From assembly GCA_947380375.1 (NCBI GenBank), contig CANCQX010000001.1:1-64000 (forward strand): 64,000 nt of DNA. Direction: 5' to 3'. Shown here piece by piece: positions 22,769-44,865 of this stretch (positions are counted from its first letter, which is position 1; each line of letters opens with the position of its first letter). Made by a program: the position numbers and the translations under genes. The notes under the pieces are model-generated. The model was not told the origin of the DNA. It saw only the letters and a list, made by a program, of their open reading frames with translations, and made no database searches. Origin of the DNA: Flavobacteriales bacterium. GTDB taxonomy: Bacteria; Bacteroidota; Bacteroidia; Flavobacteriales_D; Crocinitomicaceae.

Positions 22769-22772
22769 AGGA

Positions 22773-23874: not shown

Positions 23875-23894
23875 TTCTTTAAAAAACAATTCAA

Positions 23895-24701: not shown

Positions 24702-24708
24702 CAATTTA

Positions 24709-25569
24709 TCATTCTTTTTTAATCCATCCAAAAACATGAACATCTGAAAAATTATCAGGATTAATTGCTGATGTGCTTTTTTTAGATTTTAAAGGGACTT
24801 CATAAAATAATACGTAATTCCATTTTCTATTTGAAAATAAAACTTTATAAGGAGCTTTCTCAGGATAAAATGCAATTATATTTTCATTCAAAAAATTTCC
24901 TGTTTTTTTAGAAGGTTTATTTGAAGAACATCGAAGTTTTGTTTCTTTCGTTAAATAATGAAATTTAATATCATAATGAACAGATTTAGGAATAAAAATT
25001 GATTTCAAAATTTCAGTGTTTCCTATAAAATATTTTTTTCTAAGTTTAATTTTTCCATTTAGAACTCTTATCATATCTATGTTATTACTTTTAGAAGAAC
25101 AACAAGGAAATTTATGATGAAATAAAACTAATTCTTTTGTGTTTTTATGAATTTTATAAGCGAAAATAGCTCCCGATTCCCTGTAAATTAACTTGAATTG
25201 ATTATTCTTTTTTACATATAATTCTGTGAGACTATATAAATCAGGTTTTCCTGAAGGATTTGAAAGAAATAGGAGCTCATTTATTTTATCGTTATTTAAA
25301 TCTATAAAATGCCAATTCATTTTATTTTTTGACCAATAAAATTCAAAATCAGCATCTGTGTCATATGCTCTTGTATATTCATGATCTAAAAAATCTTTAT
25401 TAAATAAAATTTCAATATTCTCCTTTAGATTTTCAGATTCATTATAAATTTTAGTTAAATCTGTTTTTCCATTATTTACAAATGTAAGCGAATTGATTTC
25501 AATCGAATTAACATTTGAAAATGATAAATTTGCTGAAATTAAAGAAATAAGTATAAATAAATGTTTCAT
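24709..25569 (-). CDS. Secreted hypothetical protein
   Basis: A 286-residue protein with signal peptide MKHLFILISLISANLSFS. I do not recognise the family. A DLNNDKINELLFLS segment near 95-108 resembles the calcium-binding loop of FG-GAP/VCBS-type repeats, and KFPCCSSKSNN near 153-163 holds paired cysteines. It starts 4 bases after the T run of the clpC terminator, so expression needs read-through or a promoter inside clpC. Confidence 0.7.
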   Translation of the reverse strand: MKHLFILISLISANLSFSNVNSIEINSLTFVNNGKTDLTKIYNESENLKENIEILFNKDFLDHEYTRAYDTDADFEFYWSKNKMNWHFIDLNNDKINELLFLSNPSGKPDLYSLTELYVKKNNQFKLIYRESGAIFAYKIHKNTKELVLFHHKFPCCSSKSNNIDMIRVLNGKIKLRKKYFIGNTEILKSIFIPKSVHYDIKFHYLTKETKLRCSSNKPSKKTGNFLNENIIAFYPEKAPYKVLFSNRKWNYVLFYEVPLKSKKSTSAINPDNFSDVHVFGWIKKE

Positions 25570-25573
25570 AAAT

Positions 25574-25596
25574 AAAAAAAGGGGGACGAATCCCCC
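25574..25596 (-). terminator. clpC terminator with a UUCG loop
   Basis: On the minus strand GGGGGA, the loop TTCG and TCCCCC are followed by seven T. The G side extends to a run of nine G (plus-strand C 25592-25600). The T run ends 4 bases before the next ATG (25569). Confidence 0.85.
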
Positions 25597-25620
25597 CCCC
25601 TTAAATTTTTAAATAATAAA

Positions 25621-28134
25621 TTATTTTGCTTTCGTTTTTTTAGGCTTTTCAATTGTAACTTTTAGTTCTTGTTGACCTTCTTCAATATCAAGTAGAATTT
25701 TGTCTCCTTCACTTAAACTAGCCTTTACAATTTGCTCTGCTAATGGATCTTCAATATATTTTTGAATAGCACGTTTCAATGGACGAGCACCAAATTTTTC
25801 ATCGTAACCTTTGTCGCATATGAAATCTTTTGCTTTTTCAGTCATTTCAATTGAATAACCAAGATTTCTAATTCTTCCGTATAATTTGGCCAATTCTAAA
25901 TCAATAATTTTATGAATATCCTCACGTTTTAACGAATGAAAAATAATCATATCATCTACACGATTTAAGAACTCTGGAGCAAAAGCTTTACGAAGAGCAT
26001 TTTGAATAACTACTTTTGAATTTTCTACAACTTGATCAGCTTGAGATTTAGTTCCAAAACCAACACCTGTTCCAAATTCAGCCAATTGACGAGCCCCAAT
26101 ATTTGATGTCATTATGATGATCGTATTTTTAAAATCTATCTTACGACCTAAACCATCTGTCATATGTCCGTCATCTAAAACTTGTAACAACAAGTTAAAT
26201 ACATCAGGATGTGCTTTTTCTATTTCATCTAATAATACTATAGAGTATGGTTTTCTTCTAACTTTTTCAGTTAATTGACCACCTTCTTCATAACCAACAT
26301 ATCCCGGAGGAGCTCCTACCAAACGTGAGATAGAGAATTTCTCCATAAATTCAGACATATCTATTCGAATCAAAGAATCTTCTGAATCAAATAAATATTT
26401 AGAAAGAACTTTTGCTAATTGTGTTTTACCAACACCAGTAGGCCCTAGGAAAAAGAAAGACCCGATTGGCTTATTTGGATCTTTTAAACCAGCCCTACTT
26501 CTTTGAATAGCTTTAACAACTTTCAATACAGCTTCATCTTGACCGATAACTTTACCTGTTAATTCAGCTGCCATATTTGCAAGTTTACCACTTTCTCCAG
26601 CTGTAATTTTAGTAACAGGGATTCCACACATCATAGAAACTACTTCAGCTACATTTTCTTCAGTAACTAAAACTCTATTTGATTTAGATTCATCATCCCA
26701 TTTTTTATTAGCAACTTCTAATTGCTCTTGAAGTTTACGCTCATTATCTCTTAATTCCGCAGCTTTTTCATACTGTTGAGACTTGATAACTTCATTTTTT
26801 AAATCCTTTAATTCTTCAATGCTTTTTTCAATTGAAGTAATTTCTGAAGGAACATTAATATTTGTTATATGAACTCTAGATCCAACTTCATCCATAGCAT
26901 CAATCGCTTTGTCAGGAAGATGTCTGTCAGTGATATATCTCTCTGTCAATTTGACACAAGCTTCAATAGCCTCTGGAGTATAAGTTACAGAATGATGCGC
27001 TTCATAACGCTCTTTTATATTATTTAAAATCTGAATAGTCTCTTCTTCAGTTGTTGGTTCTATCAATACTTTTTGGAAACGACGAACTAATGCTCCATCT
27101 TTCTCTATATATTGGCGGTATTCATCAAGTGTTGTTGCACCAATTGCTTGTAACTCACCTCTAGCTAAAGCTGGTTTAAACATATTAGCAGCATCTAAAG
27201 ATCCACTTGCACCGCCAGCCCCTATAATGGTATGAATTTCATCAATGAATAAAATAATATCGGGATTTTTTTCAATCTCCTGCATTACAGCCTTCATTCT
27301 TTCTTCAAACTGACCTCTATATTTAGTACCAGCAACTAGAGAAGCTAAATCAAGAGAAACAACTCTTTTGTTAAATAGTACCCTTGAAACTTTTCTTTGA
27401 ACAATTCTTAAAGCCAAACCTTCAGCAACTGCACTTTTCCCAACTCCAGGTTCACCAATTAAAATTGGATTATTTTTCTTTCTTCTTGAAAGAATTTGAC
27501 TTACACGTTCTATTTCTTTATCACGACCAACAATAGGATCTAATTTTCCCATTTCTGCCATTTTAGTCAAATCACGACCGAAATTATCTAAAACAGGAGT
27601 CTTAGACTTCGGGTCAGTTGGTTTCTTTTGAGCTGCAAAAGATTCGCTCTCTTCTTCTGATCCACCAGGAAATTCAGCTCTAGGGGTTGTTTTTTCGTCT
27701 CTCATATTTTCTAATTCGTCTTTCACATTATCATAAATCACTCCATACTTATTTAATATTCTGCAAGCAACATTATCTTCATCCTTTAAAATTGACAATA
27801 ACAAATGTTCTGTACCAATCATTGGACTTTTAAATAATTTAGCTTCTAAATAAGTAAATTTCAATACTTTTTCTGCCTGCTTCACTAATGGTATATTCGT
27901 CATAGAAGGATTTGACTTCTTTGTAGACTTAGTAATACTTTTTTCCACTTCATCTCTAACATTAACCAAATCTAAATGAAACTCTTTTAATATTTTTATT
28001 GCAGTACCATCCCCTTCTCTTAATAAACCTAATAGCAAATGCTCAACACCTATAAAATCGTTACCTAAACGCAACGCTTCCTCACGACTAAAACTAATCA
28101 CATCTTTTACTCTTGGTGAAAATTTTGCTTCCAT
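25621..28134 (-). CDS. clpC: ATP-dependent Clp protease ATP-binding subunit ClpC
   Basis: AAA+ unfoldase that feeds substrates to ClpP. Residues 1-145 are the two Clp N repeats; the first AAA module has Walker A GEPGVGKS (227-234) and Walker B ILFIDE (294-299); the UVR/M-domain segment SQQYEKAAELRDNERKLQEQ is near 445-465; the second module has Walker A GPTGVGKT (564-571). The loop VGFG at 691-694 is the ClpP-docking tripeptide, so it should pair with ClpP. At 837 residues it is full length with a Lys-rich tail. It is divergent from gyrA and has its own promoter. Confidence 0.97.
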   Translation of the reverse strand: MEAKFSPRVKDVISFSREEALRLGNDFIGVEHLLLGLLREGDGTAIKILKEFHLDLVNVRDEVEKSITKSTKKSNPSMTNIPLVKQAEKVLKFTYLEAKLFKSPMIGTEHLLLSILKDEDNVACRILNKYGVIYDNVKDELENMRDEKTTPRAEFPGGSEEESESFAAQKKPTDPKSKTPVLDNFGRDLTKMAEMGKLDPIVGRDKEIERVSQILSRRKKNNPILIGEPGVGKSAVAEGLALRIVQRKVSRVLFNKRVVSLDLASLVAGTKYRGQFEERMKAVMQEIEKNPDIILFIDEIHTIIGAGGASGSLDAANMFKPALARGELQAIGATTLDEYRQYIEKDGALVRRFQKVLIEPTTEEETIQILNNIKERYEAHHSVTYTPEAIEACVKLTERYITDRHLPDKAIDAMDEVGSRVHITNINVPSEITSIEKSIEELKDLKNEVIKSQQYEKAAELRDNERKLQEQLEVANKKWDDESKSNRVLVTEENVAEVVSMMCGIPVTKITAGESGKLANMAAELTGKVIGQDEAVLKVVKAIQRSRAGLKDPNKPIGSFFFLGPTGVGKTQLAKVLSKYLFDSEDSLIRIDMSEFMEKFSISRLVGAPPGYVGYEEGGQLTEKVRRKPYSIVLLDEIEKAHPDVFNLLLQVLDDGHMTDGLGRKIDFKNTIIIMTSNIGARQLAEFGTGVGFGTKSQADQVVENSKVVIQNALRKAFAPEFLNRVDDMIIFHSLKREDIHKIIDLELAKLYGRIRNLGYSIEMTEKAKDFICDKGYDEKFGARPLKRAIQKYIEDPLAEQIVKASLSEGDKILLDIEEGQQELKVTIEKPKKTKAK

Positions 28135-28182
28135 ACGCTTAACATTAAACTTGCTACTAATTAAACACTAATTAACAGATTA

Positions 28183-28211
28183 CAAATATAAAACTAATAA
28201 AATGTTAACAA
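28183..28211 (-). promoter_or_regulatory. clpC promoter
   Basis: On the minus strand TTG (28209-28211), an 18-base spacer and TATATTTG (28183-28190) form a good Bacteroidota promoter, with the ATG 48 bases downstream at 28134. No CIRCE element (TTAGCACTC inverted repeat) was seen. Confidence 0.65.
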
Positions 28212-28228
28212 CTTCCAATAATAAGCAA

Positions 28229-28237
28229 TTTTCCACA
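28229..28237 (+). other. Single DnaA-box-like sequence between clpC and gyrA
   Basis: TTTTCCACA fits TTWTNCACA. It is the only copy noticed in this gap, so it is not an origin by itself; it could be chance in an AT-rich spacer. Confidence 0.25.
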
Positions 28238-28353
28238 GATTTTTGTTAGTAAAAATGGAAAACTACTCTAATCAACTAGGTTTATTATAACTACTTTCGT
28301 TGCTTGAAATAACTTCGTACAAATACTGTGCTCTAAAAAATAAAAGTGACAAT

Positions 28354-30945
28354 ATGGCTGATGGTGAAAGAATAATCCAGATTAATATTGAAGATGAAAT
28401 GAAATCTGCTTACATTGATTATGCAATGTCAGTTATCGTTTCACGTGCCCTTCCTGATGCGCGAGATGGTTTAAAACCAGTTCATAGACGTGTGTTATAT
28501 GGTATGCAAGATTTAGGTTTACAATCTAATCGTCCTCATAAAAAATCAGCAAGAATTGTTGGTGAAGTACTTGGAAAGTATCATCCACATGGTGACACAT
28601 CTGTTTATGACGCTATGGTAAGGATGGCGCAACCATGGTCTTTACGCTATCCTTTAGTAGATGGGCAGGGTAACTTTGGTTCTGTCGATGGAGATAGTCC
28701 AGCAGCTATGCGTTATACTGAAGCAAGATTGAAAAAGATTGCTGAAGAAATGTTAGAAGATCTTGACAAAGAAACAGTTGATTTCACACCTAACTTTGAT
28801 GAGAGTTTATCAGAACCTTCTGTAATGCCTTCTAAAATACCTGCCCTTCTTATGAATGGTGCAAGTGGTATTGCTGTTGGTATGGCTACAAATATGGCTC
28901 CTCATAATTTATCAGAAATTATTGATGGTACAATAGCTTATGTTAACAATCAAGATATTGAAATTGAAGAATTATTACAACATGTAAAAGCACCTGATTT
29001 CCCTACAGGTGGTATAATTTACGGATACGAAGGTGTTCGCGACGCGTTATTAACGGGTCGTGGAAGAATAGTAATGCGTGCAAAAGCAGAAATCGAAGAA
29101 GTTGGAGGGAGAGAACAAATAATTGTAACTGAAATTCCATACCAAGTTAACAAAGCTGATATGATCAAGAAAACAGCTGACTTGGTTAATGATAAAAAAA
29201 TTGAAGGTATTTCTGATATTAGAGATGAATCTGATAGAAATGGAATGCGTATCGTTTATGAATTAAAACGTGACGCAATACCAAATGTAGTCTTAAATAA
29301 ATTATTTAAATTTACAGCTCTACAAACTTCATTTTCAGTTAATAACATCTGTCTAGTTGATGGTAAGCCACAATTGTTAAACTTAAAGCAATTGATAGCT
29401 GTATTTGTTGATTTCAGACATGAGGTTATTAATAGACGTACTATTTTTGAATTAAGAAAAGCAGAAGAAAGAGCACATATATTAGAAGGTTTAATTATTG
29501 CTTCCGACAATATTGACGAAGTGATACAAATCATAAGAGCTTCTAAAAGCCCTGAAGAAGCACGTGAAAATTTAATAGCACGTTTTGCTTTATCAGATAT
29601 TCAATCTAGAGCAATTGTTGAAATGCGTCTTCGTCATTTAACAGGACTAGAGCAAGATAAATTAAGAGCTGAATTTAACGATTTAATGCTTTTAATAACT
29701 GACTTAAAAGATATTCTTGCACGTGTTGAACGTAGAATGCAAATTATAATTGACGAATTAACTGTAATTAAAGAAAAATATGGTGATGCTCGTCGTTCTA
29801 TAATTGAATATTCTGCTACAGAAATGAGAATGGAAGATTTAATTGCTGACGAAGAAGTAATTATAACTATTTCTCATGCTGGATATATTAAACGTACTAG
29901 TTTAACTGAATTTAAAGTTCAAAACAGAGGTGGAATGGGATCAAAAGGTTCTACCACTAGAGATAAAGATTTCTTAGAGCAATTATTCGTTGCTACAAAT
30001 CACAATTACTTATTGATATTTACAGAAAAAGGAAGATGTTTTTGGATGCGTGTTTATGAAATTCCTGAAGGAAGTAAAACTGCAAAAGGTAGAGCAATTC
30101 AAAACTTATTAAATATTGAACAAGATGATAAAGTTAAAGCTTATGTCAAAGTTCAAGATTTAACAGATAAAGAATATGTTGAGAATAACTTCATAATAAT
30201 GTGTACTAAACAAGGAATCATTAAGAAAACTTCTTTAGCTGCCTACTCTCGACCAAGAACAAATGGTATAAATGCTATTTCAATTCGTGAAAACGATGAA
30301 TTATTAGAAGCTAAATTAACTAATGGTTCTCATGAAATCGTTTTAGCAACTACAAACGGAAGAGCTATTCGTTTCAATGAATCTAAAGTTAGACCAATGG
30401 GTAGAAATGCTTCAGGAGTTCGTGGAGTTACGTTGACTTCTGAAACAGATGAAGTTATAGGAATGATCTGTGCAGAAGATATCCACTCAACAATTTTAGT
30501 AGTATCCGAAAAAGGATATGGGAAACGAACTTATCTAAATGATCCTGAAGATAATGAACCTGTTTATAGAGTTACTAATCGTGGAGGAAAAGGTGTTAAA
30601 ACTTTAAATATCACGGATAAAACAGGTCCTTTACTTGCTATTAAAAACGTATCGAATGAAGATGATTTAATGATTATTACAAAATCAGGAATTACAATTC
30701 GTATGCACGTGGACACTTTAAGAACAATGGGTAGAGCTGCGCAAGGAGTTCGTTTAATAAATCTTAAAGGTACTGCAGCAATTGCAGCTGTAGCAAGAGT
30801 TCCAAGAAGTGAAGATGAGGAAGAAATTGAATTTGATGAAGAAGGAAATCCAATAGTACCAATTATTGATATAGATAACGGCACAGATATTGAGAATGAA
30901 TTACCAACTGATTCTGATGAAACTGAAAGTGATTCTGTGGAATAA
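28354..30945 (+). CDS. gyrA: DNA gyrase subunit A
   Basis: Breakage-reunion subunit of gyrase. The catalytic tyrosine is Tyr121 in [10 protein letters not shown]; the quinolone-determining region reads [12 protein letters not shown] with Thr82 and Asp86 at the positions of E. coli Ser83 and Asp87, and the GyrA box QNRGGMG is at 523-529. The beta-pinwheel repeats follow, then an acidic tail rich in Glu/Asp. The frame stays open to a TTG at 28300, but I use the ATG at 28354, which begins [16 protein letters not shown] as in other GyrA proteins; 863 residues is normal. Thr82 is a natural variant position and not by itself evidence of resistance. Confidence 0.97.
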
Positions 30946-30979
30946 TTAATATGATTGCATCTAATTGAAAACGAAAAGT

Positions 30980-32188
30980 ATGAAAAACAATTTAATAAAA
31001 TCAACTCTTTTAGTTGGGACTATTCTTGTGTCGAATATTTCTATTTCTCAAAAAAAGAATGAAACTTCGGCTGCTGTAGCGTATAAGAACACTTATTCAT
31101 CTGCAATTTCAAATAATAATTTACCAGGAGCTAAAAAAGCTTTAGCTGATGCTAAACGATATATAGATGAAGCTGCTGCGAATATTGAGACAAAGGAAAG
31201 CCCCAAAACTCAAATGTTAAAAGGTAGTATTTATTCAACTATTTATTTACTAGGAACTGATTTAAAAGATACCTCCTTATTAAATAGTGTTGGACCTTCA
31301 GCTTTGCATATTGCAGCTATTTCATTCAAAACTGGCTACAATATCAATGATAAATTCAAAAGTGATATCAAAGATGTTGTTATTGAAAAACATACTGCTA
31401 TAGAATCATTATCTATGGCGTTTTACAATAGTAACAATTTCAAAGAAGCGGCTGAAATGTACACTAATCAAGTTGAATTGTATGACGCTATAAACTTGTT
31501 AGATACAAATTCTCTCTTCAATTCTGCCTTATGTTATGATAAATCAGGTGACAATGCTAATGCAGCTTTAACATTTGAAAGACTAGCAAAATCAGGTTAT
31601 AAAGGTGCTTTAACGTATGCTTTAGCTTCAAATTCATATAGAAAAAACAAACAAATAGCAGAAGCAAAAGCAATTGTAGCTGAAGGAAGAATAAAGTATC
31701 CTCAAGACAAAGATATTTTATTAGAAGCAGTTAACACTTGTTTAGAAGGTAATGATCCACAAGGTGCAGAATCATTACTAACTGAAGCGATTTCAAAAGA
31801 TCCTAAAAATAAGTTACTACACTTAACAATTGGATCTATTTATATCGATTTAAAACAAAATGAGAAAGCAGAAGCATCAATTAATAATGCTTTAGCAATA
31901 GATCCCGAGTATGAAGATGCTTTGTATCAATTGGGAGCACATCTTGTTACATGGGCAGGATCTTTAATTGCACAAACAAATAATCTAAAATACAATGATC
32001 CAAAACTAAAAACTTTAGAAAAACAAGCTATGGAGATATACAATAGAGCAATAACACCGCTTGAAAAATACATTGTAAAATCCCCAAATGACAAAAATGT
32101 ATTAACTATACTTTCACAATTAAATAGAAGTATTGGTAATATGGAGAAATCTGATCAATACAAAGAAAGAGCTAAAGCGATTAAATAA
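30980..32188 (+). CDS. Tetratricopeptide-repeat exported protein
   Basis: A 402-residue protein with an N-terminal signal-like segment (NLIKSTLLVGTILVSNISIS) and several TPR-like helix pairs, clearest at about 175-200, 260-320 (KLLHLTIGSIYIDLKQNEKAEASINNALAIDPE, in two parts) and 365-395. TPR proteins scaffold partners; this one is probably periplasmic or lipid-free and secreted. The frame opens at a TTG at 30965, but the ATG at 30980 is preferred. It follows gyrA by 34 bases and has its own terminator. Confidence 0.82.
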   Translation: MKNNLIKSTLLVGTILVSNISISQKKNETSAAVAYKNTYSSAISNNNLPGAKKALADAKRYIDEAAANIETKESPKTQMLKGSIYSTIYLLGTDLKDTSLLNSVGPSALHIAAISFKTGYNINDKFKSDIKDVVIEKHTAIESLSMAFYNSNNFKEAAEMYTNQVELYDAINLLDTNSLFNSALCYDKSGDNANAALTFERLAKSGYKGALTYALASNSYRKNKQIAEAKAIVAEGRIKYPQDKDILLEAVNTCLEGNDPQGAESLLTEAISKDPKNKLLHLTIGSIYIDLKQNEKAEASINNALAIDPEYEDALYQLGAHLVTWAGSLIAQTNNLKYNDPKLKTLEKQAMEIYNRAITPLEKYIVKSPNDKNVLTILSQLNRSIGNMEKSDQYKERAKAIK

Positions 32189-32209
32189 TTTTAATAAAAA
32201 TAGTTTATT

Positions 32210-32242
32210 AAAAGGTTATCAAATTATTTGATAACCTTTTTT
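32210..32242 (+). terminator. Near-perfectly palindromic terminator after the TPR gene
   Basis: AAAAGGTTATCAAAT (32210-32224) and ATTTGATAACCTTTT (32226-32240) pair fully around a single central T, followed by more T. It shows that terminators in this genome can be almost loopless palindromes, like the one at the axis. Confidence 0.85.
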
Positions 32243-32261
32243 ATTTAATAAATAAATTTTA

Positions 32262-32294
32262 TTTGTAAAGTGAAAAATAAAATCATTAACTTTG
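32262..32294 (+). promoter_or_regulatory. rpsA promoter
   Basis: TTTG (32262-32265), a 21-base spacer and TAACTTTG (32287-32294) form a consensus promoter. The expected leader before the ATG at 32388 is about 85 bases, long for this genome. Confidence 0.7.
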
Positions 32295-32342
32295 TAAAGT
32301 ATGGCTGTAAACTTTATTTTCATACGGCTAAATATTAATCAC

Positions 32343-32369
32343 TTTCGAGATTTATAAAGTTACTCGAAA
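32343..32369 (+). promoter_or_regulatory. Hairpin in the rpsA mRNA leader
   Basis: TTTCGAG (32343-32349) pairs with CTCGAAA (32363-32369) across 13 bases, ending 18 bases before the rpsA ATG. It could be a translational control element; this is inferred from position only. Confidence 0.4.
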
Positions 32370-32387
32370 TACAATTTAAAAAGCCAA

Positions 32388-34193
32388 ATGGCAGAAAACA
32401 AAATTACAGGTCAAGGAAGTGCTGATTTCGATTGGGACGCATTATCATTAGATGGTTATTCTTTAGCACAACGTTCAGAATTATCTGATGTTTACGAAAA
32501 CACATTAACTTCAATCAATGAGAAAGAAGTAATTGAAGGAACAGTTATCGCAATTACTAAAAGAGAAGTTGTTGTAAACATTGGTTTTAAATCTGAAGGA
32601 GTAATCCAAAACGGAGAATTCCGTTACAATCCAGATTTAGCTGTTGGAGACAAAGTAGACGTTTTTGTAGAATGTCAAGAAGACCGTTTTGGTCAATTGG
32701 TTATTTCTCACAAAACTGCTCGTATGCACAAAGCATGGATTCATGTTAATGATGTATTACGTACGGGTGAAGTTATTACTGGTTTCGTTAAATGTCGAAC
32801 AAAAGGTGGTTTAATTGTTGATGTTTTTGGAATTGAAGCATTCTTGCCAGGTTCTCAAATTGACGTTAAACCAATTCGTGACTATGATGTTTACGTTGGT
32901 AAAAACATGGAATTCAAAGTTGTTAAAATCAACCAAGAATTTAGAAATGTTGTTGTTTCTCACAAAGCACTTATTGAGGCTGAATTAGAAGAACAGAAAA
33001 AATTAATTATCTCAGGTCTTGAAAAAGGTCAAGTATTAGAAGGTACAGTTAAAAACATTACTTCTTACGGTGTATTCATCGATTTAGGTGGTGTTGATGG
33101 ACTTATCCATATTACAGATCTTTCTTGGGGACGTGTTAATCACCCAGATGAGATTCTTGAATTAGATCAAAAATTAAATGTTGTAATTTTAGACTTCGAT
33201 GACGATAAAAAACGTATCGCTCTTGGTTTAAAACAATTACAACCTCACCCATGGGATGCTCTAGATATGGCATTAAACATTGGTGATACATTAGAAGGTA
33301 AAGTTGTTGTTATGGCTGACTATGGTGCATTCGTTGAAATTGCTCCAGGTGTAGAAGGTTTAATCCACGTTTCAGAAATGAGCTGGTCACAACACTTACG
33401 TTCTGCTCAAGATTTCATGTCAGTTGGTGATACAGTGAAAGCTGTTATCTTAACATTAGATAGAGAAGATCGTAAAATGTCATTAGGAATTAAACAATTA
33501 ATGCCAGATCCATGGGAAGTTGTTGAAGCGAAATATACAGTTGCGTCTAAACACACAGCAAAAGTTCGTAACTTCACAAACTTTGGTGTTTTTGTTGAAT
33601 TAGAAGAAGGAGTTGACGGATTAATTCATATCTCTGACTTATCATGGCAGAAAAAAATCAAACATCCTTCTGAATTCTGTAAAGTTGGTGACGAATTAAA
33701 CGTAGTAGTTTTAGAAATCGATAGAGAAAATCGTCGTATTTCTTTAGGTCACAAACAACTTGAAGAAAATCCATGGGATGTATTTGAAACTATTTTTGGA
33801 GAAGGATCTGTTCACCAAGGAACTATCATTGAAAACAAAGATAAATCTGGTATCGTAACTTTACCTTATGGTGTTGAAGGAATTTGTCCTGCAAAACATT
33901 TACGTAAAGCAGATGGATCTAACGCTAAAATCGAAGAAACTTTAGATTTCAAAGTAATTGAATTTAATAAAGAATCTAAGAAAATCGTTGTATCTCATAC
34001 ACGTACTTTCGAAGAAGGTGAAGATAAACCAACTACTTCTGCACCAATAAAAGAGAAATCTTCTAGTAAAAAAGGAGCTGGTGATTCTCAAGCATCACAA
34101 GTTGCTAAATCTAATAATCAAAATGCAGAGAAATCTACATTGGGTGACTTAGATGCTTTAGTTGCATTAAAAGAAAAAATGAACAAAGGTTAG
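32388..34193 (+). CDS. rpsA: 30S ribosomal protein S1
   Basis: S1 helps bring mRNA to the 30S subunit. Six S1 OB-fold domains are visible, starting near residues 48 (GTVIAITKREVVVNIGF), 130 (TGFVKCRTKGGLIVDVFG), 217 (GTVKNITSYGVFIDLGG), 303 (GKVVVMADYGAFVEIAPG), 388 (AKVRNFTNFGVFVELEEG) and 475 (GTIIENKDKSGIVTLP). The last is the most divergent. A Ser/Lys-rich tail follows; 601 residues is typical for Bacteroidota. It has its own promoter with a long leader and a strong terminator. Confidence 0.97.
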   Translation: MAENKITGQGSADFDWDALSLDGYSLAQRSELSDVYENTLTSINEKEVIEGTVIAITKREVVVNIGFKSEGVIQNGEFRYNPDLAVGDKVDVFVECQEDRFGQLVISHKTARMHKAWIHVNDVLRTGEVITGFVKCRTKGGLIVDVFGIEAFLPGSQIDVKPIRDYDVYVGKNMEFKVVKINQEFRNVVVSHKALIEAELEEQKKLIISGLEKGQVLEGTVKNITSYGVFIDLGGVDGLIHITDLSWGRVNHPDEILELDQKLNVVILDFDDDKKRIALGLKQLQPHPWDALDMALNIGDTLEGKVVVMADYGAFVEIAPGVEGLIHVSEMSWSQHLRSAQDFMSVGDTVKAVILTLDREDRKMSLGIKQLMPDPWEVVEAKYTVASKHTAKVRNFTNFGVFVELEEGVDGLIHISDLSWQKKIKHPSEFCKVGDELNVVVLEIDRENRRISLGHKQLEENPWDVFETIFGEGSVHQGTIIENKDKSGIVTLPYGVEGICPAKHLRKADGSNAKIEETLDFKVIEFNKESKKIVVSHTRTFEEGEDKPTTSAPIKEKSSSKKGAGDSQASQVAKSNNQNAEKSTLGDLDALVALKEKMNKG

Positions 34194-34217
34194 AAAATAT
34201 CTTTTTTAATATTTTTT

Positions 34218-34252
34218 AAACAGGCTTTCGTAATGAAAGCCTGTTTTTTTTT
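34218..34252 (+). terminator. rpsA terminator
   Basis: AAACAGGCTTTC (34218-34229) and GAAAGCCTGTTT (34235-34246) form a 12-base stem with a GTAAT loop and a T run. Confidence 0.92.
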
Positions 34253-34262
34253 GAATAATGAT

Positions 34263-34270
34263 TATATTTG
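34263..34270 (+). promoter_or_regulatory. -7 box of the axis-proximal lipoprotein gene
   Basis: TATATTTG fits TAnnTTTG and lies 21 bases before the ATG at 34292, just after the rpsA terminator. The -33 element is not clear. Confidence 0.45.
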
Positions 34271-34291
34271 TTTAAGTAACAATATAAAGAC

Positions 34292-34753
34292 ATGATTATG
34301 AATTTTAAAAGATTAATTAAATCAATACATCTTCTTGCAATATTATCAGTATTCACTATTCTTTTATCTTGTAAAAAAGAAGGTTCTATAACATATCCTA
34401 CATCAACAAATTATGGTGATAATATATTCACAATTTTAGATGGGAAATTAATTTCAGAAGAAAGTTATAGCTTTGAAGCTAACCTAACTAAAAATGCAAC
34501 ATTAACTGTTGAAATAACAAATTTATCTGAAAAAGTAACTGATCCATTTAAACAAAAACCAACTTGGGGATTTGATTTTGTAAAAGGATGGAAAGCTGGA
34601 AACTATATTAATGAAACTCAAACATTTGAAACAGTGCAAGTAGGGAAAAATGATTTTAAAATTGTTTTTGTTGGAACAAATGGTGCTTGTATAATGAAAG
34701 TATTTGAGAATGGATCTCTTGACCCTGCAATTATTAAAAATTTCACATGGTAA
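34292..34753 (+). CDS. Hypothetical lipoprotein
   Basis: A 153-residue protein with a lipoprotein signal peptide ending in LLSC (Cys27) followed by KKEGS. The mature part looks like a small beta-sandwich (SFEANLTKNATLTVEITNLSEK, NDFKIVFVGTNGACIMKVFENG). No family is recognised. A second ATG two codons on is equally possible as start. Its stop is 30 bases from the palindrome axis, so it sits tail to tail with its own copy. Confidence 0.75.
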   Translation: MIMNFKRLIKSIHLLAILSVFTILLSCKKEGSITYPTSTNYGDNIFTILDGKLISEESYSFEANLTKNATLTVEITNLSEKVTDPFKQKPTWGFDFVKGWKAGNYINETQTFETVQVGKNDFKIVFVGTNGACIMKVFENGSLDPAIIKNFTW

Positions 34754-34763
34754 GAAATTTAAA

Positions 34764-34803
34764 CCAAAAAAAGCTGTTAAATTAATTTAACAGCTTTTTT
34801 TGG
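34764..34803. terminator. Intrinsic terminator at the axis of the inverted repeat
   Basis: A run of A, GCTGTTAAATT, AATTTAACAGC and a run of T form a perfect loopless palindrome centred between 34783 and 34784. It reads as a terminator for the lipoprotein gene on either side. How much of it is native cannot be judged, since the sequence beyond the axis is a copy. Confidence 0.75.
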
Positions 34804-34813
34804 TTTAAATTTC

Positions 34814-35275
34814 TTACCATGTGAAATTTTTAATAATTGCAGGGTCAAGAGATCCATTCTCAAATACTTTCATTATACAAGCACCATTTGTTCCAACAAA
34901 AACAATTTTAAAATCATTTTTCCCTACTTGCACTGTTTCAAATGTTTGAGTTTCATTAATATAGTTTCCAGCTTTCCATCCTTTTACAAAATCAAATCCC
35001 CAAGTTGGTTTTTGTTTAAATGGATCAGTTACTTTTTCAGATAAATTTGTTATTTCAACAGTTAATGTTGCATTTTTAGTTAGGTTAGCTTCAAAGCTAT
35101 AACTTTCTTCTGAAATTAATTTCCCATCTAAAATTGTGAATATATTATCACCATAATTTGTTGATGTAGGATATGTTATAGAACCTTCTTTTTTACAAGA
35201 TAAAAGAATAGTGAATACTGATAATATTGCAAGAAGATGTATTGATTTAATTAATCTTTTAAAATTCATAATCAT
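34814..35275 (-). CDS. Hypothetical lipoprotein (copy of 34292-34753)
   Basis: Identical 153-residue lipoprotein with lipobox LLSC. It is the first gene on this side of the axis and shares the axis terminator with its partner. The mature domain is unrecognised. Confidence 0.72.
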   Translation of the reverse strand: MIMNFKRLIKSIHLLAILSVFTILLSCKKEGSITYPTSTNYGDNIFTILDGKLISEESYSFEANLTKNATLTVEITNLSEKVTDPFKQKPTWGFDFVKGWKAGNYINETQTFETVQVGKNDFKIVFVGTNGACIMKVFENGSLDPAIIKNFTW

Positions 35276-35314
35276 GTCTTTATATTGTTACTTAAACAAA
35301 TATAATCATTATTC

Positions 35315-35349
35315 AAAAAAAAACAGGCTTTCATTACGAAAGCCTGTTT
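35315..35349 (-). terminator. rpsA-copy terminator
   Basis: Same 12-base stem with GTAAT loop as at 34218-34252. Confidence 0.85.
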
Positions 35350-35373
35350 AAAAAATATTAAAAAAGATATTTT

Positions 35374-37179
35374 CTAACCTTTGTTCATTTTTTCTTTTAA
35401 TGCAACTAAAGCATCTAAGTCACCCAATGTAGATTTCTCTGCATTTTGATTATTAGATTTAGCAACTTGTGATGCTTGAGAATCACCAGCTCCTTTTTTA
35501 CTAGAAGATTTCTCTTTTATTGGTGCAGAAGTAGTTGGTTTATCTTCACCTTCTTCGAAAGTACGTGTATGAGATACAACGATTTTCTTAGATTCTTTAT
35601 TAAATTCAATTACTTTGAAATCTAAAGTTTCTTCGATTTTAGCGTTAGATCCATCTGCTTTACGTAAATGTTTTGCAGGACAAATTCCTTCAACACCATA
35701 AGGTAAAGTTACGATACCAGATTTATCTTTGTTTTCAATGATAGTTCCTTGGTGAACAGATCCTTCTCCAAAAATAGTTTCAAATACATCCCATGGATTT
35801 TCTTCAAGTTGTTTGTGACCTAAAGAAATACGACGATTTTCTCTATCGATTTCTAAAACTACTACGTTTAATTCGTCACCAACTTTACAGAATTCAGAAG
35901 GATGTTTGATTTTTTTCTGCCATGATAAGTCAGAGATATGAATTAATCCGTCAACTCCTTCTTCTAATTCAACAAAAACACCAAAGTTTGTGAAGTTACG
36001 AACTTTTGCTGTGTGTTTAGACGCAACTGTATATTTCGCTTCAACAACTTCCCATGGATCTGGCATTAATTGTTTAATTCCTAATGACATTTTACGATCT
36101 TCTCTATCTAATGTTAAGATAACAGCTTTCACTGTATCACCAACTGACATGAAATCTTGAGCAGAACGTAAGTGTTGTGACCAGCTCATTTCTGAAACGT
36201 GGATTAAACCTTCTACACCTGGAGCAATTTCAACGAATGCACCATAGTCAGCCATAACAACAACTTTACCTTCTAATGTATCACCAATGTTTAATGCCAT
36301 ATCTAGAGCATCCCATGGGTGAGGTTGTAATTGTTTTAAACCAAGAGCGATACGTTTTTTATCGTCATCGAAGTCTAAAATTACAACATTTAATTTTTGA
36401 TCTAATTCAAGAATCTCATCTGGGTGATTAACACGTCCCCAAGAAAGATCTGTAATATGGATAAGTCCATCAACACCACCTAAATCGATGAATACACCGT
36501 AAGAAGTAATGTTTTTAACTGTACCTTCTAATACTTGACCTTTTTCAAGACCTGAGATAATTAATTTTTTCTGTTCTTCTAATTCAGCCTCAATAAGTGC
36601 TTTGTGAGAAACAACAACATTTCTAAATTCTTGGTTGATTTTAACAACTTTGAATTCCATGTTTTTACCAACGTAAACATCATAGTCACGAATTGGTTTA
36701 ACGTCAATTTGAGAACCTGGCAAGAATGCTTCAATTCCAAAAACATCAACAATTAAACCACCTTTTGTTCGACATTTAACGAAACCAGTAATAACTTCAC
36801 CCGTACGTAATACATCATTAACATGAATCCATGCTTTGTGCATACGAGCAGTTTTGTGAGAAATAACCAATTGACCAAAACGGTCTTCTTGACATTCTAC
36901 AAAAACGTCTACTTTGTCTCCAACAGCTAAATCTGGATTGTAACGGAATTCTCCGTTTTGGATTACTCCTTCAGATTTAAAACCAATGTTTACAACAACT
37001 TCTCTTTTAGTAATTGCGATAACTGTTCCTTCAATTACTTCTTTCTCATTGATTGAAGTTAATGTGTTTTCGTAAACATCAGATAATTCTGAACGTTGTG
37101 CTAAAGAATAACCATCTAATGATAATGCGTCCCAATCGAAATCAGCACTTCCTTGACCTGTAATTTTGTTTTCTGCCAT
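35374..37179 (-). CDS. rpsA: 30S ribosomal protein S1 (copy of 32388-34193)
   Basis: Identical 601-residue S1 with six S1 domains. Two full identical rpsA genes facing each other around a terminator is not a known bacterial arrangement. The copied control region includes the promoter TTTG 37302-37305 / TAACTTTG 37273-37280 and the leader hairpin 37198-37224. Confidence 0.9.
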   Translation of the reverse strand: MAENKITGQGSADFDWDALSLDGYSLAQRSELSDVYENTLTSINEKEVIEGTVIAITKREVVVNIGFKSEGVIQNGEFRYNPDLAVGDKVDVFVECQEDRFGQLVISHKTARMHKAWIHVNDVLRTGEVITGFVKCRTKGGLIVDVFGIEAFLPGSQIDVKPIRDYDVYVGKNMEFKVVKINQEFRNVVVSHKALIEAELEEQKKLIISGLEKGQVLEGTVKNITSYGVFIDLGGVDGLIHITDLSWGRVNHPDEILELDQKLNVVILDFDDDKKRIALGLKQLQPHPWDALDMALNIGDTLEGKVVVMADYGAFVEIAPGVEGLIHVSEMSWSQHLRSAQDFMSVGDTVKAVILTLDREDRKMSLGIKQLMPDPWEVVEAKYTVASKHTAKVRNFTNFGVFVELEEGVDGLIHISDLSWQKKIKHPSEFCKVGDELNVVVLEIDRENRRISLGHKQLEENPWDVFETIFGEGSVHQGTIIENKDKSGIVTLPYGVEGICPAKHLRKADGSNAKIEETLDFKVIEFNKESKKIVVSHTRTFEEGEDKPTTSAPIKEKSSSKKGAGDSQASQVAKSNNQNAEKSTLGDLDALVALKEKMNKG

Positions 37180-37197
37180 TTGGCTTTTTAAATTGTA

Positions 37198-37224
37198 TTT
37201 CGAGTAACTTTATAAATCTCGAAA
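37198..37224 (-). promoter_or_regulatory. Leader hairpin of the rpsA copy
   Basis: Same TTTCGAG/CTCGAAA stem as in the left arm, 18 bases before the start codon. Confidence 0.35.
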
Positions 37225-37272
37225 GTGATTAATATTTAGCCGTATGAAAATAAAGTTTACAGCCATACTTTA

Positions 37273-37305
37273 CAAAGTTAATGATTTTATTTTTCACTTT
37301 ACAAA
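37273..37305 (-). promoter_or_regulatory. Promoter of the rpsA copy
   Basis: TTTG-N21-TAACTTTG on the minus strand. Confidence 0.6.
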
Positions 37306-37324
37306 TAAAATTTATTTATTAAAT

Positions 37325-37357
37325 AAAAAAGGTTATCAAATAATTTGATAACCTTTT
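37325..37357 (-). terminator. Terminator of the TPR-gene copy
   Basis: Palindromic stem around one central base, as at 32210-32242. Confidence 0.8.
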
Positions 37358-37378
37358 AATAAACTATTTTTATTAAAA

Positions 37379-38587
37379 TTATTTAATCGCTTTAGCTCTT
37401 TCTTTGTATTGATCAGATTTCTCCATATTACCAATACTTCTATTTAATTGTGAAAGTATAGTTAATACATTTTTGTCATTTGGGGATTTTACAATGTATT
37501 TTTCAAGCGGTGTTATTGCTCTATTGTATATCTCCATAGCTTGTTTTTCTAAAGTTTTTAGTTTTGGATCATTGTATTTTAGATTATTTGTTTGTGCAAT
37601 TAAAGATCCTGCCCATGTAACAAGATGTGCTCCCAATTGATACAAAGCATCTTCATACTCGGGATCTATTGCTAAAGCATTATTAATTGATGCTTCTGCT
37701 TTCTCATTTTGTTTTAAATCGATATAAATAGATCCAATTGTTAAGTGTAGTAACTTATTTTTAGGATCTTTTGAAATCGCTTCAGTTAGTAATGATTCTG
37801 CACCTTGTGGATCATTACCTTCTAAACAAGTGTTAACTGCTTCTAATAAAATATCTTTGTCTTGAGGATACTTTATTCTTCCTTCAGCTACAATTGCTTT
37901 TGCTTCTGCTATTTGTTTGTTTTTTCTATATGAATTTGAAGCTAAAGCATACGTTAAAGCACCTTTATAACCTGATTTTGCTAGTCTTTCAAATGTTAAA
38001 GCTGCATTAGCATTGTCACCTGATTTATCATAACATAAGGCAGAATTGAAGAGAGAATTTGTATCTAACAAGTTTATAGCGTCATACAATTCAACTTGAT
38101 TAGTGTACATTTCAGCCGCTTCTTTGAAATTGTTACTATTGTAAAACGCCATAGATAATGATTCTATAGCAGTATGTTTTTCAATAACAACATCTTTGAT
38201 ATCACTTTTGAATTTATCATTGATATTGTAGCCAGTTTTGAATGAAATAGCTGCAATATGCAAAGCTGAAGGTCCAACACTATTTAATAAGGAGGTATCT
38301 TTTAAATCAGTTCCTAGTAAATAAATAGTTGAATAAATACTACCTTTTAACATTTGAGTTTTGGGGCTTTCCTTTGTCTCAATATTCGCAGCAGCTTCAT
38401 CTATATATCGTTTAGCATCAGCTAAAGCTTTTTTAGCTCCTGGTAAATTATTATTTGAAATTGCAGATGAATAAGTGTTCTTATACGCTACAGCAGCCGA
38501 AGTTTCATTCTTTTTTTGAGAAATAGAAATATTCGACACAAGAATAGTCCCAACTAAAAGAGTTGATTTTATTAAATTGTTTTTCAT
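37379..38587 (-). CDS. Tetratricopeptide-repeat exported protein (copy of 30980-32188)
   Basis: Same 402-residue TPR protein with signal-like N-terminus, again 34 bases after gyrA on its strand. Start chosen at the ATG and not the TTG five codons earlier. Confidence 0.78.
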   Translation of the reverse strand: MKNNLIKSTLLVGTILVSNISISQKKNETSAAVAYKNTYSSAISNNNLPGAKKALADAKRYIDEAAANIETKESPKTQMLKGSIYSTIYLLGTDLKDTSLLNSVGPSALHIAAISFKTGYNINDKFKSDIKDVVIEKHTAIESLSMAFYNSNNFKEAAEMYTNQVELYDAINLLDTNSLFNSALCYDKSGDNANAALTFERLAKSGYKGALTYALASNSYRKNKQIAEAKAIVAEGRIKYPQDKDILLEAVNTCLEGNDPQGAESLLTEAISKDPKNKLLHLTIGSIYIDLKQNEKAEASINNALAIDPEYEDALYQLGAHLVTWAGSLIAQTNNLKYNDPKLKTLEKQAMEIYNRAITPLEKYIVKSPNDKNVLTILSQLNRSIGNMEKSDQYKERAKAIK

Positions 38588-38621
38588 ACTTTTCGTTTTC
38601 AATTAGATGCAATCATATTAA

Positions 38622-41213
38622 TTATTCCACAGAATCACTTTCAGTTTCATCAGAATCAGTTGGTAATTCATTCTCAATATCTGTGCCGTTATCTATATCA
38701 ATAATTGGTACTATTGGATTTCCTTCTTCATCAAATTCAATTTCTTCCTCATCTTCACTTCTTGGAACTCTTGCTACAGCTGCAATTGCTGCAGTACCTT
38801 TAAGATTTATTAAACGAACTCCTTGCGCAGCTCTACCCATTGTTCTTAAAGTGTCCACGTGCATACGAATTGTAATTCCTGATTTTGTAATAATCATTAA
38901 ATCATCTTCATTCGATACGTTTTTAATAGCAAGTAAAGGACCTGTTTTATCCGTGATATTTAAAGTTTTAACACCTTTTCCTCCACGATTAGTAACTCTA
39001 TAAACAGGTTCATTATCTTCAGGATCATTTAGATAAGTTCGTTTCCCATATCCTTTTTCGGATACTACTAAAATTGTTGAGTGGATATCTTCTGCACAGA
39101 TCATTCCTATAACTTCATCTGTTTCAGAAGTCAACGTAACTCCACGAACTCCTGAAGCATTTCTACCCATTGGTCTAACTTTAGATTCATTGAAACGAAT
39201 AGCTCTTCCGTTTGTAGTTGCTAAAACGATTTCATGAGAACCATTAGTTAATTTAGCTTCTAATAATTCATCGTTTTCACGAATTGAAATAGCATTTATA
39301 CCATTTGTTCTTGGTCGAGAGTAGGCAGCTAAAGAAGTTTTCTTAATGATTCCTTGTTTAGTACACATTATTATGAAGTTATTCTCAACATATTCTTTAT
39401 CTGTTAAATCTTGAACTTTGACATAAGCTTTAACTTTATCATCTTGTTCAATATTTAATAAGTTTTGAATTGCTCTACCTTTTGCAGTTTTACTTCCTTC
39501 AGGAATTTCATAAACACGCATCCAAAAACATCTTCCTTTTTCTGTAAATATCAATAAGTAATTGTGATTTGTAGCAACGAATAATTGCTCTAAGAAATCT
39601 TTATCTCTAGTGGTAGAACCTTTTGATCCCATTCCACCTCTGTTTTGAACTTTAAATTCAGTTAAACTAGTACGTTTAATATATCCAGCATGAGAAATAG
39701 TTATAATTACTTCTTCGTCAGCAATTAAATCTTCCATTCTCATTTCTGTAGCAGAATATTCAATTATAGAACGACGAGCATCACCATATTTTTCTTTAAT
39801 TACAGTTAATTCGTCAATTATAATTTGCATTCTACGTTCAACACGTGCAAGAATATCTTTTAAGTCAGTTATTAAAAGCATTAAATCGTTAAATTCAGCT
39901 CTTAATTTATCTTGCTCTAGTCCTGTTAAATGACGAAGACGCATTTCAACAATTGCTCTAGATTGAATATCTGATAAAGCAAAACGTGCTATTAAATTTT
40001 CACGTGCTTCTTCAGGGCTTTTAGAAGCTCTTATGATTTGTATCACTTCGTCAATATTGTCGGAAGCAATAATTAAACCTTCTAATATATGTGCTCTTTC
40101 TTCTGCTTTTCTTAATTCAAAAATAGTACGTCTATTAATAACCTCATGTCTGAAATCAACAAATACAGCTATCAATTGCTTTAAGTTTAACAATTGTGGC
40201 TTACCATCAACTAGACAGATGTTATTAACTGAAAATGAAGTTTGTAGAGCTGTAAATTTAAATAATTTATTTAAGACTACATTTGGTATTGCGTCACGTT
40301 TTAATTCATAAACGATACGCATTCCATTTCTATCAGATTCATCTCTAATATCAGAAATACCTTCAATTTTTTTATCATTAACCAAGTCAGCTGTTTTCTT
40401 GATCATATCAGCTTTGTTAACTTGGTATGGAATTTCAGTTACAATTATTTGTTCTCTCCCTCCAACTTCTTCGATTTCTGCTTTTGCACGCATTACTATT
40501 CTTCCACGACCCGTTAATAACGCGTCGCGAACACCTTCGTATCCGTAAATTATACCACCTGTAGGGAAATCAGGTGCTTTTACATGTTGTAATAATTCTT
40601 CAATTTCAATATCTTGATTGTTAACATAAGCTATTGTACCATCAATAATTTCTGATAAATTATGAGGAGCCATATTTGTAGCCATACCAACAGCAATACC
40701 ACTTGCACCATTCATAAGAAGGGCAGGTATTTTAGAAGGCATTACAGAAGGTTCTGATAAACTCTCATCAAAGTTAGGTGTGAAATCAACTGTTTCTTTG
40801 TCAAGATCTTCTAACATTTCTTCAGCAATCTTTTTCAATCTTGCTTCAGTATAACGCATAGCTGCTGGACTATCTCCATCGACAGAACCAAAGTTACCCT
40901 GCCCATCTACTAAAGGATAGCGTAAAGACCATGGTTGCGCCATCCTTACCATAGCGTCATAAACAGATGTGTCACCATGTGGATGATACTTTCCAAGTAC
41001 TTCACCAACAATTCTTGCTGATTTTTTATGAGGACGATTAGATTGTAAACCTAAATCTTGCATACCATATAACACACGTCTATGAACTGGTTTTAAACCA
41101 TCTCGCGCATCAGGAAGGGCACGTGAAACGATAACTGACATTGCATAATCAATGTAAGCAGATTTCATTTCATCTTCAATATTAATCTGGATTATTCTTT
41201 CACCATCAGCCAT
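38622..41213 (-). CDS. gyrA: DNA gyrase subunit A (copy of 28354-30945)
   Basis: Identical GyrA with Tyr121, the GyrA box and the acidic tail. A second intact gyrA of identical sequence is not expected in one genome. The minus-strand frame extends past the ATG to 41267 as in the left arm. Confidence 0.9.
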
Positions 41214-41329
41214 ATTGTCACTTTTATTTTTTAGAGCACAGTATTTGTACGAAGTTATTTCAAGCAACGAAAGTAGTTATAATAAACCTAGTTGATTAGA
41301 GTAGTTTTCCATTTTTACTAACAAAAATC

Positions 41330-41338
41330 TGTGGAAAA
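41330..41338 (-). other. DnaA-box-like sequence (copy)
   Basis: TTTTCCACA on the minus strand; same weak status as at 28229-28237. Confidence 0.2.
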
Positions 41339-41355
41339 TTGCTTATTATTGGAAG

Positions 41356-41384
41356 TTGTTAACATTTTATTAGTTTTATATTTG
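41356..41384 (+). promoter_or_regulatory. Promoter of the clpC copy
   Basis: TTG (41356-41358), 18 bases, TATATTTG (41377-41384), then ATG at 41433. Confidence 0.55.
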
Positions 41385-41432
41385 TAATCTGTTAATTAGT
41401 GTTTAATTAGTAGCAAGTTTAATGTTAAGCGT

Positions 41433-43946
41433 ATGGAAGCAAAATTTTCACCAAGAGTAAAAGATGTGATTAGTTTTAGTCGTGAGGAAGCGTTGCGTTT
41501 AGGTAACGATTTTATAGGTGTTGAGCATTTGCTATTAGGTTTATTAAGAGAAGGGGATGGTACTGCAATAAAAATATTAAAAGAGTTTCATTTAGATTTG
41601 GTTAATGTTAGAGATGAAGTGGAAAAAAGTATTACTAAGTCTACAAAGAAGTCAAATCCTTCTATGACGAATATACCATTAGTGAAGCAGGCAGAAAAAG
41701 TATTGAAATTTACTTATTTAGAAGCTAAATTATTTAAAAGTCCAATGATTGGTACAGAACATTTGTTATTGTCAATTTTAAAGGATGAAGATAATGTTGC
41801 TTGCAGAATATTAAATAAGTATGGAGTGATTTATGATAATGTGAAAGACGAATTAGAAAATATGAGAGACGAAAAAACAACCCCTAGAGCTGAATTTCCT
41901 GGTGGATCAGAAGAAGAGAGCGAATCTTTTGCAGCTCAAAAGAAACCAACTGACCCGAAGTCTAAGACTCCTGTTTTAGATAATTTCGGTCGTGATTTGA
42001 CTAAAATGGCAGAAATGGGAAAATTAGATCCTATTGTTGGTCGTGATAAAGAAATAGAACGTGTAAGTCAAATTCTTTCAAGAAGAAAGAAAAATAATCC
42101 AATTTTAATTGGTGAACCTGGAGTTGGGAAAAGTGCAGTTGCTGAAGGTTTGGCTTTAAGAATTGTTCAAAGAAAAGTTTCAAGGGTACTATTTAACAAA
42201 AGAGTTGTTTCTCTTGATTTAGCTTCTCTAGTTGCTGGTACTAAATATAGAGGTCAGTTTGAAGAAAGAATGAAGGCTGTAATGCAGGAGATTGAAAAAA
42301 ATCCCGATATTATTTTATTCATTGATGAAATTCATACCATTATAGGGGCTGGCGGTGCAAGTGGATCTTTAGATGCTGCTAATATGTTTAAACCAGCTTT
42401 AGCTAGAGGTGAGTTACAAGCAATTGGTGCAACAACACTTGATGAATACCGCCAATATATAGAGAAAGATGGAGCATTAGTTCGTCGTTTCCAAAAAGTA
42501 TTGATAGAACCAACAACTGAAGAAGAGACTATTCAGATTTTAAATAATATAAAAGAGCGTTATGAAGCGCATCATTCTGTAACTTATACTCCAGAGGCTA
42601 TTGAAGCTTGTGTCAAATTGACAGAGAGATATATCACTGACAGACATCTTCCTGACAAAGCGATTGATGCTATGGATGAAGTTGGATCTAGAGTTCATAT
42701 AACAAATATTAATGTTCCTTCAGAAATTACTTCAATTGAAAAAAGCATTGAAGAATTAAAGGATTTAAAAAATGAAGTTATCAAGTCTCAACAGTATGAA
42801 AAAGCTGCGGAATTAAGAGATAATGAGCGTAAACTTCAAGAGCAATTAGAAGTTGCTAATAAAAAATGGGATGATGAATCTAAATCAAATAGAGTTTTAG
42901 TTACTGAAGAAAATGTAGCTGAAGTAGTTTCTATGATGTGTGGAATCCCTGTTACTAAAATTACAGCTGGAGAAAGTGGTAAACTTGCAAATATGGCAGC
43001 TGAATTAACAGGTAAAGTTATCGGTCAAGATGAAGCTGTATTGAAAGTTGTTAAAGCTATTCAAAGAAGTAGGGCTGGTTTAAAAGATCCAAATAAGCCA
43101 ATCGGGTCTTTCTTTTTCCTAGGGCCTACTGGTGTTGGTAAAACACAATTAGCAAAAGTTCTTTCTAAATATTTATTTGATTCAGAAGATTCTTTGATTC
43201 GAATAGATATGTCTGAATTTATGGAGAAATTCTCTATCTCACGTTTGGTAGGAGCTCCTCCGGGATATGTTGGTTATGAAGAAGGTGGTCAATTAACTGA
43301 AAAAGTTAGAAGAAAACCATACTCTATAGTATTATTAGATGAAATAGAAAAAGCACATCCTGATGTATTTAACTTGTTGTTACAAGTTTTAGATGACGGA
43401 CATATGACAGATGGTTTAGGTCGTAAGATAGATTTTAAAAATACGATCATCATAATGACATCAAATATTGGGGCTCGTCAATTGGCTGAATTTGGAACAG
43501 GTGTTGGTTTTGGAACTAAATCTCAAGCTGATCAAGTTGTAGAAAATTCAAAAGTAGTTATTCAAAATGCTCTTCGTAAAGCTTTTGCTCCAGAGTTCTT
43601 AAATCGTGTAGATGATATGATTATTTTTCATTCGTTAAAACGTGAGGATATTCATAAAATTATTGATTTAGAATTGGCCAAATTATACGGAAGAATTAGA
43701 AATCTTGGTTATTCAATTGAAATGACTGAAAAAGCAAAAGATTTCATATGCGACAAAGGTTACGATGAAAAATTTGGTGCTCGTCCATTGAAACGTGCTA
43801 TTCAAAAATATATTGAAGATCCATTAGCAGAGCAAATTGTAAAGGCTAGTTTAAGTGAAGGAGACAAAATTCTACTTGATATTGAAGAAGGTCAACAAGA
43901 ACTAAAAGTTACAATTGAAAAGCCTAAAAAAACGAAAGCAAAATAA
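41433..43946 (+). CDS. clpC: ClpC ATPase subunit (copy of 25621-28134)
   Basis: Identical 837-residue ClpC with both AAA modules, the UVR segment and the ClpP-docking VGFG loop. In this orientation the second Walker A codons begin at 43122 and the VGFG codons at 43503. Confidence 0.9.
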   Translation: MEAKFSPRVKDVISFSREEALRLGNDFIGVEHLLLGLLREGDGTAIKILKEFHLDLVNVRDEVEKSITKSTKKSNPSMTNIPLVKQAEKVLKFTYLEAKLFKSPMIGTEHLLLSILKDEDNVACRILNKYGVIYDNVKDELENMRDEKTTPRAEFPGGSEEESESFAAQKKPTDPKSKTPVLDNFGRDLTKMAEMGKLDPIVGRDKEIERVSQILSRRKKNNPILIGEPGVGKSAVAEGLALRIVQRKVSRVLFNKRVVSLDLASLVAGTKYRGQFEERMKAVMQEIEKNPDIILFIDEIHTIIGAGGASGSLDAANMFKPALARGELQAIGATTLDEYRQYIEKDGALVRRFQKVLIEPTTEEETIQILNNIKERYEAHHSVTYTPEAIEACVKLTERYITDRHLPDKAIDAMDEVGSRVHITNINVPSEITSIEKSIEELKDLKNEVIKSQQYEKAAELRDNERKLQEQLEVANKKWDDESKSNRVLVTEENVAEVVSMMCGIPVTKITAGESGKLANMAAELTGKVIGQDEAVLKVVKAIQRSRAGLKDPNKPIGSFFFLGPTGVGKTQLAKVLSKYLFDSEDSLIRIDMSEFMEKFSISRLVGAPPGYVGYEEGGQLTEKVRRKPYSIVLLDEIEKAHPDVFNLLLQVLDDGHMTDGLGRKIDFKNTIIIMTSNIGARQLAEFGTGVGFGTKSQADQVVENSKVVIQNALRKAFAPEFLNRVDDMIIFHSLKREDIHKIIDLELAKLYGRIRNLGYSIEMTEKAKDFICDKGYDEKFGARPLKRAIQKYIEDPLAEQIVKASLSEGDKILLDIEEGQQELKVTIEKPKKTKAK

Positions 43947-43970
43947 TTTATTATTTAAAAATTTAAGGGG

Positions 43971-43993
43971 GGGGGATTCGTCCCCCTTTTTTT
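43971..43993 (+). terminator. UUCG-loop terminator of the clpC copy
   Basis: GGGGGA-TTCG-TCCCCC plus seven T, 4 bases before the ATG of the next gene; the run of nine G (43967-43975) has the same length as in the left arm. Confidence 0.8.
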
Positions 43994-43997
43994 ATTT

Positions 43998-44858: not shown

Positions 44859-44865
44859 TAAATTG

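Follow-up and report, generated by a model that had tools for sequence, protein, structure and literature searches.

A self-complementary contig in a Flavobacteriales draft genome, very probably turned by the assembly at a terminator hairpin

Introduction

The contig C1 of a 3.05-Mb Flavobacteriales draft genome (202 contigs) reads the same on both strands, which raises the question of whether its two arms exist in the organism or were written from one arm during assembly, and why the sequence turns where it does. C1 has 69,566 bp, exceeding every other contig looked at, and the window analysed here is the 64,000-base stretch at its positions 1-64000. The original prediction, made from the sequence of this window, was that the turning point is the centre of an intrinsic terminator, and that a hairpin or a self-complementary k-mer could have sent a polymerase or an assembler onto the other strand.

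Results

The axis of symmetry lies between positions 34783 and 34784, at the junction of AAAAAAAGCTGTTAAATT and AATTTAACAGCTTTTTTT, and among all the axes tested nearby it is the sole one with 100% complementarity. Inside the window 29,217 of 29,217 pairs across the axis are complementary, with zero mismatches, and the entire contig, which is of even length, is identical to its own reverse complement (34,783 pairs, 0 mismatches). The two ends of C1 are, therefore, one and the same place and its information content is 34,783 bases. The gene order on the native arm is parA-parB ... gyrA-TPR-S1-lipoprotein, which is partly common to the related genome G001. The features of the contig are collected in Table 1.

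Table 1 Features of contig C1, in window coordinates
Feature	Position	Strand	Remarks
Outer end of C1	1..149	+	exact 149-base overlap with C161 inside parA
Native arm	5567..34783	+	zero mismatches against the mirror; 1-34783 on the contig, 5567 being the limit of the in-window partner
Terminator, 15-bp arms around a single base	32210..32240	+	cannot be self-complementary at even length
Ribosomal protein S1 (rpsA)	32388..34193	+	two copies only through the mirror
Terminator 3' of rpsA	34218..34246	+	12-bp stem, 5-base loop
Small lipoprotein gene	34292..34753	+	153 aa, signal peptide, LSC lipobox; upstream of the axis terminator
Predicted intrinsic terminator, loopless 36-bp palindrome	34766..34801	.	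axis at its centre; homologous terminators in G001, G004 and G002
Mirror copy, almost certainly artefactual	34784..64000	-	C1 equals its own reverse complement; missing from relatives; runs on to 69566 (contig end)

The hairpin at the axis is a palindrome of 36 bp (40 bp counting the CC/GG) with no loop and with an A run and a T run at its flanks, and positions 34764-34803 fold at -21.2 kcal/mol (RNAfold). A stable stem is followed by a T run soon after a stop codon, as in an intrinsic terminator. The original prediction had placed the axis in the middle of ATTAAT, within a stem flanked by A and T runs and 30 bases after a stop codon, and all of this was borne out: the last base of the lipoprotein stop codon is 34753, 30 bases upstream of the axis. 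The A-run/stem/T-run arrangement is present on both strands, as in bidirectional intrinsic terminators between convergent genes, and from its sequence the hairpin probably works as one. The A run begins 10-14 bases past the stop codon, and the counterparts in related genomes sit between convergent genes. It differs from the usual intrinsic terminator in being loopless at base level over its 36 bp, a form shared with G001 and a few sites in this genome and nothing unusual. No second occurrence of the axis terminator sequence was found anywhere in the assembly.

A perfect stem alone proves nothing, as mirroring turns any axis into a perfect palindrome. The locus was, therefore, compared with its homologues. 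In three genomes of the same genus (G001, G004 and G002, in that order below) the S1 gene is followed by the lipoprotein gene, adjacent as here, the lipoproteins having 58, 43 and 40% identity with the 153-aa protein. After the lipoprotein stop each has a short spacer, an A run, a stem and a T run, with the hairpin axis 32, 27 and 28 bases past the stop, and a convergent gene follows 64-66 bases on. The hairpin of G001 is likewise loopless over 36 bp (AAAAAAAATCCCATTCAATTGAATGGGATTTTTTTT). The convergent gene encodes a branched-chain aminotransferase (BCAT) in G001 and a peptidyl-prolyl isomerase (PPIase) in G004 and G002. An inverted copy past the lipoprotein terminator is absent from all three. 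S1 occurs at a homologous score once in each of 12 relatives out of 12 (three of these copies being partial, on short contigs) and twice in the present assembly, both copies on C1.

The relatives thus have a terminator in the same place, a different next gene and no mirror, and this indicates that the hairpin, unlike the second arm, belongs to the native sequence. It is the outcome that had been anticipated, namely a similar terminator past the lipoprotein gene with another gene beyond it, and the inverted second copy in relatives that would have spoken against it is lacking in all three. The left half of the axis hairpin is native and the right half probably is too, being inseparable from the mirror here.

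The genome's own BCAT gene is on C122 in another context, with an unrelated gene alongside, and the best counterpart of the G004 and G002 PPIase is a match of only 47% inside a longer frame on C3. Neither was accepted as the true downstream neighbour of C1, given the other context and the 47% match. The recQ-BCAT pair is conserved between C122 (L031, 67-4759) and G001 (L032, G001:C71, 5224-8933). After BCAT comes the lipoprotein/S1 block in G001, whereas an unrelated gene follows in this genome, implying that the region has been rearranged within the genus. The public records of the relatives are of metagenome-assembled genomes (MAGs). Two MAG records that group with this genome in one genus (L091, CAMDMY010000071.1; L093, CAMDAO010000021.1) are titled 'Chryseobacterium gleum', and a third member of the group has just 'Flavobacteriales bacterium' as its title. 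The species label seems questionable.

The ends of the contigs give information on the assembler. The outer 149 bases of C1 are also the start of C161, in the opposite orientation, and joining the two contigs restores an intact ParA of 271 aa, so that the outer break of C1 falls within a normal gene and has one known neighbour. Among the visible contigs (those of at least 3 kb in this bin) the outer 149-mer occurs in C161 only. The other end of C161 shares exactly 149 bases with C117, and C67 and C88 begin with identical 149 bases. Such exact 149-base overlaps between contig ends point to a de Bruijn assembler with a final k of 149. To our knowledge the k of SPAdes does not reach 149, while that of MEGAHIT does, and MEGAHIT carries contigs built at low k into later rounds. 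The assembler thus appears to have been MEGAHIT or similar. The last contig of this assembly, C202, has 3,006 bases. MEGAHIT was the assembler in two published studies of freshwater MAGs, with 3 kb as the minimum length for binning; the k-mers were 29, 49 ... 149 in one (PMC9166423) and 49 ... 149 in the other (PMC9878933). The genome would seem to stem from such a project.

Turning at the hairpin was modelled in a toy de Bruijn graph, for which the input was the last 1,000 native bases and the T-run arm of the axis hairpin. When coverage ended at the hairpin, all the odd values of k tested from 21 up to 35 gave a single self-complementary unitig, its length exactly double that of the arm. When the far side was covered the path halted at a branch and no self-complementary contig was formed, and at k of 37 or more the 36-bp palindrome ceased to turn the path. 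The terminator at 32210-32240 gave no turning at any k tested. It had been cited, as 32210-32242, as a comparable terminator; its 15-bp arms and one-base centre are real and its end is at 32240. An odd-k graph can be turned only by an even, loopless palindrome, which a terminator with a one-base centre is not.

On these grounds a mechanism can be proposed. In the genome the lipoprotein gene would end in an ordinary terminator hairpin, with different, unassembled sequence beyond. Being palindromic over about 36-40 bp with no loop, this hairpin holds an even-length word equal to its own reverse complement, and at odd k a self-reverse-complementary edge of k+1 bases would join a node to its opposite strand. 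If the far side were uncovered or clipped at that k, the assembler could walk back along the other strand until it reached the break at which C1 begins, in parA at the C161 overlap, and would output X-P-rc(X). Besides the hairpin itself, turning probably also required that coverage was lost on its far side. As for the first k of the assembly, which we infer, a value of 29 fits directly, since the toy graph turns up to k = 35; were it 49, the turn would call for a native palindrome no shorter than 50 bp, or else for local assembly or fold-back reads.

That the hairpin is not sufficient by itself is apparent from the rest of the assembly. In 1.19 Mb of it there are nine further loopless palindromes, 34-52 bp in length and in several cases terminators with A/T flanks. 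This agrees with the suggestion that near-perfect terminators are native to this genome, and at none of the nine does the contig turn. The hairpin explanation is, therefore, supported in that a self-complementary k-mer can turn an assembler onto the other strand, as the toy graph reproduced the contig, and needs to be amended in that the far side must also be missing or clipped. The idea that other contigs might turn at terminators found no support: besides C1, there were no whole-palindrome contigs among the 62 examined across their midpoint (C2-C9, C11-C38, C50, C55-C94 by threes and eleven shorter ones, the midpoint of C10 being left out), partial turn-backs being excluded solely for contigs read whole.

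Several other palindromes were seen. The core TAGGTATAGGGCATGCCCTATACCTA is common to C73 (L077, 11690-11742) and C180 (L090, 1717-1755), where it sits in perfect palindromes of 52 and 38 bp respectively, and is possibly a small palindromic repeat family. The palindrome GAGACGCAAAATTTTGCGTCTC, with its variant AGACGTAAAATTTTACGTCT, recurs in C58 (L072, ~13883-13905) and C24 (L056, ~11407-11429 and ~12915-12935) and looks like another short palindromic repeat. In the window a perfect 22-bp palindrome, GGTTTTTTATTAATAAAAAACC, lies within an open reading frame at 1849-1870 and the contig passes straight through it. At 25575-25602, on the minus strand just 3' of a clpC-like gene, there is a terminator-like hairpin, AAGGGGGGGGGATTCGTCCCCCTTTTTT, whose stem is unusually G-rich for a genome of 29% GC.

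Discussion

The evidence makes it very probable that C1 is a native chromosomal segment of 34,783 bases, written forward and then reverse-complemented, and that the assembly turned at the terminator hairpin. What would be expected of an assembly palindrome was found: C1 is identical to its reverse complement from end to end, the relatives have a single copy with different sequence past the axis, and a single native neighbour, C161, adjoins both ends (among visible contigs).

A fold-back during library preparation, in which a single strand primed itself at the terminator hairpin and the assembler then followed the chimeric reads, would have the identical product, X-P-rc(X), and the hairpin is a strong one (-21.2 kcal/mol). 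The chimeric reads would, however, have to outcompete the genuine reads across the hairpin, and the toy graph gives the same contig without them, so this route is unlikely. A real, perfect inverted duplication of 34.8 kb or longer in this organism would fit the contig taken alone, because a true palindrome would collapse to the identical self-complementary path in a short-read graph. It should, however, have two different outer flanks or a copy in relatives; the outer 149-mer is in C161 only, continuing an intact parA, and no relative examined carries the duplication. Zero differences between the arms would also demand a very recent event, exactly at the centre of a terminator, and zero-spacer palindromes of about 34.8 kb are unstable in bacteria. 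Such a duplication is thus very improbable.

If a linear chromosome ended here in a covalently closed hairpin telomere, reading past it onto the opposite strand would likewise give X and then rc(X). A search for the telomere resolvase PF16684 found none in the genome while the same search gave a match in a control genome, the palindrome resembles an ordinary terminator, and in the relatives the sequence is continuous, with the convergent gene 64-66 bases further on. A hairpin telomere is accordingly the most far-fetched of the explanations. Taken together, two readings, a real and perfect inverted duplication (34.8 kb or more, zero-spacer) centred on the terminator and a chromosome end closed there by a hairpin, have a very slight chance of being correct; either would involve the core chromosome (gyrA, rpsA, parAB) in a freshwater Flavobacteriales lineage.

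Turning by the assembler at the terminator, the preferred reading, has parallels. According to the available text of the two reports, whole palindromic contigs, 81 of them in SPAdes assemblies of M. bovis (PMC9455707) and others in single-cell assemblies of Synechococcus (PMC12755884), were called likely assembly errors. As far as that text goes, C1 is like these contigs in that the whole contig is one palindrome whose second half is an exact mirror, and differs in that its turning point is an identified terminator hairpin whereas no location is given for theirs. The present assembly is, moreover, metagenomic and probably from MEGAHIT, not SPAdes. A literature search found nothing specific on MEGAHIT palindromic contigs. 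The kind of artefact that C1 very probably represents is already known, and in C1 the turning point is identified.

The mirror is almost certainly a data error for trimming and not a biological structure. It adds 34.8 kb to the genome size and probably accounts for part of the genome's 3.16% contamination estimate. A simple quality check would be to halve contigs equal to their own reverse complement and to see whether a loopless terminator of k+1 bases or more lies at the axis. In the public draft genome C1 doubles about 30 genes, including gyrA, rpsA, parA and parB, and this doubling could be mistaken for gene duplication or palindromic amplification in the organism.
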